From contig NC_019738.1 in the NCBI RefSeq assembly GCF_000317515.1, positions 3,684,001-3,748,000 on the forward strand: 64,000 bases of DNA, given 5' to 3'. The translations under genes and the position numbers were made by a program. Positions 58,334 to 60,357 of this stretch are shown here, piece by piece. The notes under the pieces are model-generated. The model saw only the letters and a list, made by a program, of their open reading frames with translations. It had not been told where the DNA came from and did no database searches. Each line of letters opens with the position of its first letter. The stretch's first letter is position 1. Source of the stretch: Allocoleopsis franciscana PCC 7113. Lineage in GTDB: Bacteria > Cyanobacteriota > Cyanobacteriia > Cyanobacteriales > Coleofasciculaceae.

Positions 58334-58484
58334 GGGTTTCTCATGCGTCGGACGGCTTGGGACATTTATTCAGTCTAACCGATGGCTATCTGTAAGCGAC
58401 AGGTTTCAATAAGTTTTCCGTGCAAAGTCAGAAGTTGGGTTTATCGGCTGGGCAATAATTGAATTGACCCATTTTGGTGGTTAT

Positions 58485-59216
58485 ATGAAGCTAAATCAGT
58501 TGATTGCTGTGTTGCAATCTGTTAAAGCCAATGCCAACAAGGGCAAAACCGAGGTATCGCAACTCTCTCAGAAGAGTACATTGTTTCAAGGATTGAGCAG
58601 AACTTACCAGCCTAGAGAAGAGGATGGATTTGTATATCCTCCTGAATCGCAAAAACTGACGCTGAAGGCTGAGGAGTTAATCGAAAAGTTTGTGCAATCT
58701 TGCTCTGAATTTTTAGACTTAGCAGCTACTCAGGACTACGCTAATACTGAGGCTAAAGCATCTGTAACAGTAGATGGACGGATTATTATTGCAGATGTTC
58801 CTGTTTCCTATCTATTATTTCTCGAAAAGCAGCTTCAGGATGTGAAGACGTTCATTGCTTCACTACCCGTGCTTTCGATTGACAAAGACTGGCAGCATGA
58901 CCCCAATCGAGGATGCTACGTCACCAGTCCCAAAGAAACTGTGAAAACCAAGAAAATTACTGATTTTGTCGTTGCCTATGAAGCAACGGAACATCACCCA
59001 GCTCAAATCAAGGAGGTTTCCAAAGATATTGTGGAAGGAACCTGGAGTTTGATTGAGTTTTCAGGCGCACTTCCTCAAGACCGCGTGAATATAATGCTGC
59101 GTAGAGTGGATATGTTACAAAAAGCAGTGATTCAAGCTAGAGAAGAAGCCAATGGCAGGGAAGTGCAGCAGCGGCAAGTTGCTAATGCGATTTTTGGCTA
59201 CTTATTTGCAGATTAA
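58485..59216 (+). CDS. Unrecognised protein upstream of tRNA-like RNAs
   Basis: A 243-residue protein I cannot assign with confidence. It begins MKLNQLIAVLQSVKANANKGKTEVSQLSQK, with long helices, then a central part with KASVTVDGRIIIADVPVSYLLFLEKQLQDVKTFI and a VSKDIVEGTWSLIEFSGALPQDRVNIMLRRVDMLQKAVIQAREEAN helix. No membrane span, signal or known catalytic motif. I start at ATG 58485 (GGTGG upstream) rather than 58464. The stop at 59216 lies 24 bp before the first of two tandem permuted tRNA-like RNA elements on the same strand, which end at an intrinsic terminator; a shared transcript and an RNA-binding role are inference. Confidence 0.7.
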   Translation: MKLNQLIAVLQSVKANANKGKTEVSQLSQKSTLFQGLSRTYQPREEDGFVYPPESQKLTLKAEELIEKFVQSCSEFLDLAATQDYANTEAKASVTVDGRIIIADVPVSYLLFLEKQLQDVKTFIASLPVLSIDKDWQHDPNRGCYVTSPKETVKTKKITDFVVAYEATEHHPAQIKEVSKDIVEGTWSLIEFSGALPQDRVNIMLRRVDMLQKAVIQAREEANGREVQQRQVANAIFGYLFAD

Positions 59217-59240
59217 ACTACACTGGATTTGGAGTACAAG

Positions 59241-59346
59241 TTCATTTTTAGCGAGTAGGGTATTTGCAGGTTCGACTCCTGCCCCCTAGACTATCTGGGG
59301 GTAGGCAAATGGTAAAGCCGCCCTAGCGCATTAAGCTCAAAATAAA
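59241..59346 (+). ncRNA. YrlA-like permuted tRNA-mimic RNA, copy A
   Basis: Read 5-prime to 3-prime: outer stem strand (59241-59252), anticodon-like strand TAGGG (59256-59260), TATTT, T-arm GCAGG-TTCGACT-CCTGC (59266-59282), acceptor strand CCCCTAG (59283-59289), linker ACTAT, acceptor strand CTGGGGG (59295-59301), TA, D-arm GGC-AAATGGTAAA-GCC (59304-59319), G, CCCTA (59321-59325), outer stem strand (59335-59346). CCCTA pairs perfectly with TAGGG; CTGGGGG pairs with CCCCTAG over 7/7 with one G-U; the outer strands pair at 10 of 12 positions. This is a tRNA cut open at the anticodon loop and closed at the acceptor end, the topology described for bacterial YrlA Y RNAs. No U33-bearing anticodon loop can be assembled. 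Ends are approximate. Confidence 0.6.
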
Positions 59347-59391
59347 GCTCAAGCTATTGCTCCAATCTCATTTTCAAAAATCGCTCCCTGT

Positions 59392-59494
59392 ATCTTTCTC
59401 TGTGGAACAAGCGTTGCGAGACGCGGGTTCAAATCCCGCTCCCTGCTCTAAGTATGCGGGGGTAGTTTAGTGGCAAAACCTCACAGCATCAGAT
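59392..59494 (+). ncRNA. YrlA-like permuted tRNA-mimic RNA, copy B
   Basis: Second element with the same order: ATCT (59392-59395), anticodon-like TGTGG (59401-59405), 17-nt variable segment, T-arm GCGGG-TTCAAAT-CCCGC (59423-59439), acceptor strand TCCCTGC (59440-59446), linker TCTAAGTAT, acceptor strand GCGGGGG (59456-59462), TA, D-arm GTTT-AGTGGCA-AAAC (59465-59479), C, TCACA (59481-59485), AGAT (59491-59494). TCACA pairs with TGTGG over 5/5 with one wobble; the acceptor strands pair over 7/7 with two wobbles. The outer stem is only 4 bp. A terminator follows at 59549. It differs in sequence from copy A throughout, so the shared fold is not simply a recent duplication. Confidence 0.55.
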
Positions 59495-59548
59495 TGATTC
59501 TGCGGAAACTGGTAAATCTCTGATATAGGCTCAGCGACTTAAATCTTT

Positions 59549-59580
59549 CCCGGCATTCAGGATACGAGTGCCGGGATTTT
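59549..59580 (+). terminator. Intrinsic terminator after the tRNA-like RNAs
   Basis: CCCGGCA (59549-59555) pairs with TGCCGGG (59569-59575), with a 13-nt loop and ATTTT following. It ends rightward transcription from the protein gene and the two RNA elements, before the Uma2 gene. Confidence 0.8.
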
Positions 59581-59667
59581 ACACTGGAGTTGTTCGTGAG
59601 GATGAGGATTAACCATTGGATATGATCGGAGGATGACCCGGCAAGAAACCCAAACCTACTACCAGCA

Positions 59668-60357
59668 ATGGTCAAAACACCTCCTCAACAAAAACCTTTA
59701 CTAATTCCACCGCTCGAAAGTGGCGATCGCTTAAATCGCTATGAATTTGAGCGGCGCTACAATGCCATGCCCCATCTTAGGAAAGCTGAACTGATTGAAG
59801 GAGTTGTCTACGTGCCTGCTGCACTGCGTTTTAGAAGTCATGGTCAACCTCACGCAAATTTGATCGTTTGGCTAGGCAATTACAAGGTTGCGACACCGGG
59901 TATTGAGTTGGGAATTGAACCCACGGTTCGTTTAGATTTGGACAATGAACCCCAACCCGATGCGGTGCTGATGATTGAGGAAGAGGCTGGAGGACAGGCA
60001 CGGCTGAGTGACGATGATTATATAGAAGGGGCACCGGAGTTGGTGGCAGAGATTGCGGCGAGTAGTGCAGCGATCGATCTTGGTGATAAAAAACGAGCTT
60101 ATCGTCGCAATGGGATTAGAGAGTATATCGTTTGGCAAGTGTTTGAGCAGAGACTCGATTGGTTTTATTTGCAAGAGGGCGAGTATGTTCCACTGCCAGT
60201 GGATGAGGATGGGGTGATTCGGAGTCAAGTGTTTCCAGGTTTGTGGTTGGCAGTGGATGATTTATTGGCTGGGAATATGGGGCGAGTGCTAGCTGTGTTG
60301 CAAGAAGGGTTGGCAGCAGCAGAACATACCGCATTTGTGCAGGGGTTAGGGAAATAG
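59668..60357 (+). CDS. Uma2-family (DUF820) endonuclease-like protein
   Basis: A 229-residue Uma2 protein. AELIEGVVYVPAALRFRSHGQPHANLIVWLG and LDNEPQPDAVLMIEEEAGGQARLSDDDYIEGAPELVAEIAASSAAIDLGDKKRAYRRNGIREYIVWQV provide the Glu, Asp, Glu and Lys pattern of the PD-(D/E)xK core. C-terminal part ends in a normal Uma2 strand region (VFPGLWLAVDDLLAGN). Third Uma2 in the window; belongs to the longer subgroup lacking a coiled-coil tail. Start ATG 59668 overlaps a short out-of-frame ORF beginning near 59632. Confidence 0.8.
   Translation: MVKTPPQQKPLLIPPLESGDRLNRYEFERRYNAMPHLRKAELIEGVVYVPAALRFRSHGQPHANLIVWLGNYKVATPGIELGIEPTVRLDLDNEPQPDAVLMIEEEAGGQARLSDDDYIEGAPELVAEIAASSAAIDLGDKKRAYRRNGIREYIVWQVFEQRLDWFYLQEGEYVPLPVDEDGVIRSQVFPGLWLAVDDLLAGNMGRVLAVLQEGLAAAEHTAFVQGLGK

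Follow-up and report, generated by a model that had tools for sequence, protein, structure and literature searches.

Bacterial Y RNAs have so far been described as partners of Ro60, and the heads of the YrlA class have been described with a closed acceptor loop. Here we analyse a locus of the cyanobacterium Allocoleopsis franciscana PCC 7113 (contig NC_019738.1, positions 3,684,001 to 3,748,000; this whole stretch of 64,000 nucleotides is called the window, and coordinates refer to it), in which a gene of the uncharacterised family DUF7873 is followed by two RNAs of a comparable plan. As read from the sequence, these are two tandem, circularly permuted RNAs resembling transfer RNA (tRNA), element A at 59231-59363 and element B at 59391-59514, and a hairpin terminator comes after them. 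We estimate at roughly 60% the probability that the locus is a small ribonucleoprotein cassette of DUF7873 and two YrlA-type RNAs, in which the protein binds the basal stems and the heads dock on tRNA-handling enzymes.

The system of YrlA (RF02553) and Ro60/Rsr resembles this locus in several respects. There, too, the T, acceptor and D arms make up a permuted tRNA head, the position of the anticodon stem opens into a basal stem in which the two ends of the RNA pair, two tandem RNAs often adjoin one protein gene, and phages are among the carriers. However, the partner gene of A and B encodes DUF7873 and not Ro, which is missing from the host genome, the internal-loop motifs in the basal stems of A and B are distinct, and their scores lie far below the Rfam cut-off. 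According to one report, the basal stem of YrlA tethers Rsr, while DusA and TruB modify its tRNA-like head, which also makes contact with PNPase (PMC8394870). In another, YrlA is proposed to compete with an anticodon nuclease (PMC7790460).

Other described systems are similar in single aspects. In the circularly permuted tRNA genes of algae and archaea, the 3' half also stands ahead of the 5' half with a short linker in between, whereas A and B are without a conserved U33 or anticodon, have an extended basal stem and are found in bacteria and phages. Two-piece transfer-messenger RNA (tmRNA), encoded by a permuted gene, has acceptor halves swapped around a linker as well as a tRNA-like acceptor and T arm, but A and B contain no visible reading frame and occur as two copies beside DUF7873. 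Phage-encoded tRNA arrays are related in that several phages hold the cassette inside them, although A and B are not ordinary tRNAs and are unannotated or wrongly annotated.

Structure and conservation of the two RNA elements

The same order of arms was found twice over, namely T-arm, acceptor 3' strand, linker, acceptor 5' strand, U8/A9 and D-arm. Placing A and B in one alignment led to misaligned D arms, and therefore separate covariance models were built, R1 for B and R2 for A. Since the training sets of both models include the window's own copies, and since both also match junctions of tandem ordinary tRNAs, R1 and R2 matches alone were not counted as proof. The features of the locus are the following.

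58485..59216, +, DUF7873 (PF25283) gene; Pfam E-value 3.3e-95; putative ATG start at MKLNQ
59231..59363, +, RNA element A, permuted tRNA-like with basal stem; 67 bits with model R2; Rfam YrlA 25.5 bits at 59241-59349
59231..59242, +, basal (outer) stem of A, 5' strand GGAGTACAAGTT; pairs with 59351-59363 in about 10 of 12 pairs, likewise in close homologues
59256..59260, +, anticodon-stem-like 3' strand of A, TAGGG; 5/5 pairs with 59321-59325
59266..59282, +, T-arm of A, GCAGG TTCGACT CCTGC; T stem 100% paired over homologues
59283..59289, +, acceptor 3' strand of A, CCCCTAG; 7/7 pairs (one G-U), all 7 compensated in homologues
59290-59294, +, linker of A, ACTAT, 5 nucleotides, between the acceptor strands
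59295..59301, +, acceptor 5' strand of A, CTGGGGG; pairs with 59283-59289
59304..59319, +, D-arm of A, GGC AAATGGTAAA GCC; from sequence reading and pairing in homologues
59351..59363, +, basal stem of A, 3' strand; holds the conserved YGCTCY motif
59391..59514, +, RNA element B, permuted tRNA-like with basal stem; 75.6 bits with model R1; Rfam YrlA 23.0 bits at 59402-59506
59391-59394 with 59511-59514, +, outermost pairing of B, UAUC with GGUA; from the fold
59399..59410, +, basal stem of B, 5' strand; pairs with 59494-59506 in the fold
59423..59439, +, T-arm of B, GCGGG TTCAAAT CCCGC; from the covariation sets
59440..59446, +, acceptor 3' strand of B, TCCCTGC; 7/7 pairs; from the covariation sets
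59447-59455, +, linker of B, TCTAAGTAT, 9 nucleotides, between the acceptor strands
59456..59462, +, acceptor 5' strand of B, GCGGGGG; from the covariation sets
59465..59479, +, D-arm of B, GTTT AGTGGCA AAAC; from the covariation sets
59548..59580, +, hairpin terminator of 11 base pairs with a loop of 7 nucleotides, then UUUU; hairpin 59548-59576, -20.4 kcal/mol

ARAGORN called zero tRNAs on the window, and Rfam at gathering level returned nothing for the window and no element match in 12 homologous loci. At a relaxed threshold, the Rfam YrlA model aligned over model positions 1-114 in both copies (25.5 bits for A and 23.0 bits for B); the gathering score of 69 bits was reached by neither. A pattern search in the 500 bases 3' of DUF7873 genes detected at least one element in 138 of 158 segments and both elements in 62, whereas dinucleotide-shuffled segments gave 0 of 3160. 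Covariance models retrieved elements in ten further loci missed by the pattern. Two tandem permuted tRNA-like RNAs had already been proposed in a preliminary description made from the sequence of the window, and these counts confirm that they are real. Its linkers of 5 and 9 nucleotides, its T- and D-arms with tRNA identity bases in both copies and its outer stem around A were recovered as well, and an outer stem of B, seen in the fold, had not been reported. The internal pairing it gave is correct for the acceptor strands of both elements and for the anticodon-like strands of A; in B, the latter form 4/5 pairs in the tRNA register with one A-C mismatch, and not 5/5 as claimed. When A was folded alone without constraint, another structure was preferred, and thus its tRNA-like fold rests on comparison and not on single-sequence energy.

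With the intergenic DNA alone as query, 147 relatives were searched and homologues were found in about a dozen genomes. In the 12 copies of B found by blastn, acceptor and T stems were 100% paired, both sides had changed in 6/7 acceptor and 4/5 T pairs, and the covariation score of this set was reached by 0 of 500 shuffles. All seven acceptor pairs were compensated in larger structure-selected A and B sets from several phyla, which are biased by selection (A6, A7) and for which the blastn-found set (A10) is the check. Compensatory changes in acceptor and T stems were thus the outcome of the comparison of homologues that the preliminary description had suggested. Independent of the search pattern, position 26 was a purine in 95-100% of copies, as in tRNA. 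Pairing of the anticodon-like stem was weaker (59-73% in these alignments), in part a consequence of a variable region that is one nucleotide longer in some copies than in others.

The outer stem of B reached -19.5 kcal/mol with its own flanks versus -11.7 kcal/mol with swapped flanks (standard deviation (SD) of means 0.36; 66 non-redundant copies), and the respective values for A were -15.2 and -13.1 kcal/mol (SD 0.69; 25 copies), a difference of about 3 SD. Judged by these energies, covariation of the outer stem is strong for B and modest for A. The internal loop of B carries the motifs AUCRA on its left and UAAACG on its right side, and YGCUCY was present on the right flank of 20 of 27 non-redundant A elements versus about 5% of shuffled flanks. 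It is thus established that in both RNAs a basal stem bears a conserved permuted tRNA head, composed of acceptor, T and D arms, and that the conserved basal motifs of A and B differ.

This covariation is also the reason why a decay from ordinary tRNA genes, named in the preliminary description as a competing origin of the arms, is refuted for the present state of the elements. Acceptor changes are compensatory across phyla, the linkage to DUF7873 is fixed and the outer stem of B covaries, so that we have practically discarded the view of A and B as remnants of decayed or tandem tRNA genes. As an origin, a tandem duplication is plausible, and the junctions of ordinary tandem tRNAs matched by R1 and R2 would agree with it.

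A and B might also be genuine permuted tRNA genes, the transcript of which would be circularised at the anticodon side (e.g., by RtcB) and, after the linker is cut, used as a decoding tRNA. The order of arms is that of algal and archaeal permuted tRNA genes, the discriminator is A in 46/55 A elements (U or G in B), C74 is found in 49/55 (A) and 107/122 (B) copies, and the RtcB search suggested in the preliminary description showed that the enzyme is encoded in the host genome. However, a decoding permuted tRNA needs U33, and the low frequency of U at position 33 (22% for A and 38% for B among non-redundant copies, taking a 5-base-pair anticodon stem) counts against a decoding role. The anticodon is not conserved, an outer stem with conserved internal loops occupies the place expected for the anticodon loop, a full CCA is present in the linkers of 15/55 (A) and 29/122 (B) copies only, and the host genome has 66 ordinary tRNAs. 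A and B are probably not decoding permuted tRNAs, and this alternative, which the preliminary description had regarded as equally notable, is now disfavoured as very unlikely.

A different fate of the linker would be its excision by RNase P and 3' processing, as in permuted tmRNA, which would yield a two-piece, non-decoding tRNA-like RNA with a chargeable acceptor end. Linkers range from 5 to 59 nucleotides, and amid this free sequence and length, position 73 with C74 and pyrimidine 75 is conserved as a bacterial RNase P site would favour, which keeps a cut linker under consideration. However, the third CCA position is not conserved, and the closed acceptor loop generally ascribed to YrlA heads does not fit with such a cut. 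A two-piece RNA therefore seems rather unlikely, though worth keeping in mind.

The DUF7873 gene and the distribution of the cassette

The DUF7873 stop codon lies about 14 nucleotides ahead of the start of A, and the link between the RNA pair and this adjacent gene had been missed in the preliminary description. The protein matched its profile with 318.9 bits (curated cut-off 27), and in Pfam up to an E-value of 10, DUF7873 was the sole match, with none to Ro/TROVE. No family for it was found in PHROGs and NCBIfam, no sequence relative among solved structures and no paper in the literature searched. The AlphaFold model (predicted local distance difference test 87.8, predicted template modelling score 0.70) consists of long helices and long strands, and Foldseek returned nothing significant for it. 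TolC-like rows in VIA-align (Z ~7, root-mean-square deviation 13-17 Å) were rejected as merely reflecting long helices plus long strands. Among the invariant residues are N86, A89, P105, W135, Q173, R218 and N222. DUF7873 is the probable partner protein of A and B, as judged from their shared occurrence.

A terminator of its own, claimed for the RNA pair in the preliminary description, is supported by the hairpin at 59548-59580, though a strict consensus terminator scan did not list it. Homologues show an equivalent hairpin with altered stem sequence; this was read from a DNA alignment with loci of mixed strand, which served that purpose only. At the window locus, no promoter was found between DUF7873 and A. 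With A starting so close to the stop codon, the RNAs might form a cis-acting element in the 3' untranslated region that regulates DUF7873, e.g., through a protein or tRNA enzyme binding the message. However, there are two full, differing copies under tRNA-grade constraint, and the record of a Klebsiella phage annotates a promoter between the gene and the RNAs. Furthermore, the RNA pair is located upstream of the DUF7873 match at two loci (L213 and L214), at a distance of about 200-350 nucleotides, and not downstream, which argues against a purely 3' untranslated role. We consider such a cis-acting element highly improbable.

Searching GTDB genomes and IMG/VR with the protein revealed DUF7873 in cyanobacteria, Streptomyces, other actinomycetes, a Ktedonobacterales bacterium, deltaproteobacteria and phages. 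In pairwise DNA comparison, the unit common to otherwise unrelated contexts consisted of the gene, A, B and the terminator (about 58450-59603), and such comparisons establish that DUF7873, A and B move together between genomes. A few DUF7873 loci are without the RNA pair (e.g., L072 and L049). The closest copies, with 92-93% identical DNA, belong to another family, DUF7873 was absent from the one same-genus genome searched, and of 386 genomes sampled across the phylum, only 12 had it. This patchy distribution points to a spread of the cassette by horizontal transfer. At two loci (L063 and L065, in G121 and G105), stop codons interrupt DUF7873 and element B is intact, possibly a case of an RNA outliving its protein gene. 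On the 3' side of the cassette in the window, a gene for a Uma2-family putative endonuclease follows at 59668-60357, and the similarity to most relatives ends before it.

In phages, DUF7873 was found in 73 records and is called a hypothetical protein wherever an annotation is given. The cassette lies within a tRNA-gene cluster in five of six annotated phages examined (Arthrobacter phage Mimi, Rhizobium phage RHph_TM30, Klebsiella phage FBKp24, Gordonia phage GodonK and Rhodococcus phage NiceHouse), and DUF7873 of Pseudanabaena phage Pam2 is outside any tRNA cluster. As raw counts, with no baseline for phages of similar size, ordinary tRNAs were present in 31 of 36 DUF7873 phage records, and at least three tRNAs lay near DUF7873 at 30/80 viral loci (within 8 kilobases) versus 1/80 cellular loci (within 10 kilobases). 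In the public record of Klebsiella phage vB_KpM_FBKp24 (L230 6012-6091), part of element B is labelled tRNA-Sup-TTA, apparently because the permuted RNA was misread. In the host genome itself, more than 20 ordinary tRNA genes are packed into a dense array (G000:C1:2370590-2376214), which resembles cryptic tRNA operons in other cyanobacteria and does not include DUF7873. According to two reports, tRNA-cleaving host defences can be defeated by phage tRNAs (PMC10264068, PMC11555353), and protection of tRNAs is thus a role that readily suggests itself when a tRNA mimic is found in phages.

Relation to Ro and proposed function

The preliminary description had noted that no Ro gene was in view and had suggested searching the genome for one; the whole-genome search for Ro (TROVE) gave no match in the host genome, and the statement thus extends to the genome as a whole. 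Elsewhere, 18 of 29 further genomes with DUF7873 had TROVE, as did 6 of 19 cyanobacteria and 7 of 49 phage records. This co-occurrence, together with a head and plan as in YrlA, would be expected if A and B were canonical Y RNAs serving a Ro60/Rsr encoded elsewhere. However, besides the host genome, 42 of the 49 phage records (many of them fragments) were without a TROVE match, and Ro, where present, is often adjoined by Y RNA-like elements of its own. We therefore regard a service to Ro as unlikely.

In genomes also carrying DUF7873, YrlA-like elements with 29-43 bits and the same head as A and B adjoin several Ro genes. Four such TROVE-adjacent elements (L257 2774-2837, L258 2511-2620, L259 2513-2652 and L261 542-607) scored 34-43 bits. 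As the Ro-linked elements all remain under 69 bits, the public YrlA model misses many Y RNAs, and the low YrlA score of A and B does not exclude their membership in the class. Because Ro genes often have YrlA-like elements of their own, the DUF7873 cassette looks like a parallel to the Ro/Y RNA system. From the YrlA assignment of the preliminary description, the permuted head borne by a basal stem has stood, as has the end-to-end alignment with the Rfam model, and the scores far under the cut-off, the absence of Ro and DUF7873 as the constant partner depart from it.

In the favoured ribonucleoprotein cassette, DUF7873 would hold the basal stems of A and B as Ro holds Y RNAs. The heads resemble the tRNA elbow and acceptor, have no anticodon loop and might dock on tRNA-handling enzymes, with RNase P, tRNA modification enzymes, PNPase and tRNA nucleases as candidates, where they could serve as bait, tether or competitor. 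Given the position of the cassette in phage tRNA arrays, its likeliest purpose would be to protect the tRNA pool or to control its quality during stress or defence. Several points weigh against this interpretation. Cellular DUF7873 copies are mostly located away from tRNA arrays, the basal stem of A covaries only modestly, and the DUF7873 model has no recognised RNA-binding fold. Furthermore, it is linkage that suggests DUF7873, rather than some other protein, as the partner, and expression, binding and function of the cassette are what we infer from sequence.

We give roughly even odds to the wider proposal that DUF7873 and two permuted tRNA mimics constitute a widespread, mobile and Ro-independent Y ribonucleoprotein in bacteria and tRNA-rich phages, which would protect, repair or police tRNAs, e.g., as a decoy against a tRNA-cleaving defence. 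The cassette is compact (about 1.1 kilobases), and cultured Streptomyces as well as sequenced actinophages carry it, so that the proposal is directly testable. If true, the tRNA mimic would be separable from Ro, and a large family would exist with the same plan and another protein partner. The uncharacterised family DUF7873 would obtain a first role, and a candidate player would be added to the tRNA-centred conflict between phages and their hosts.
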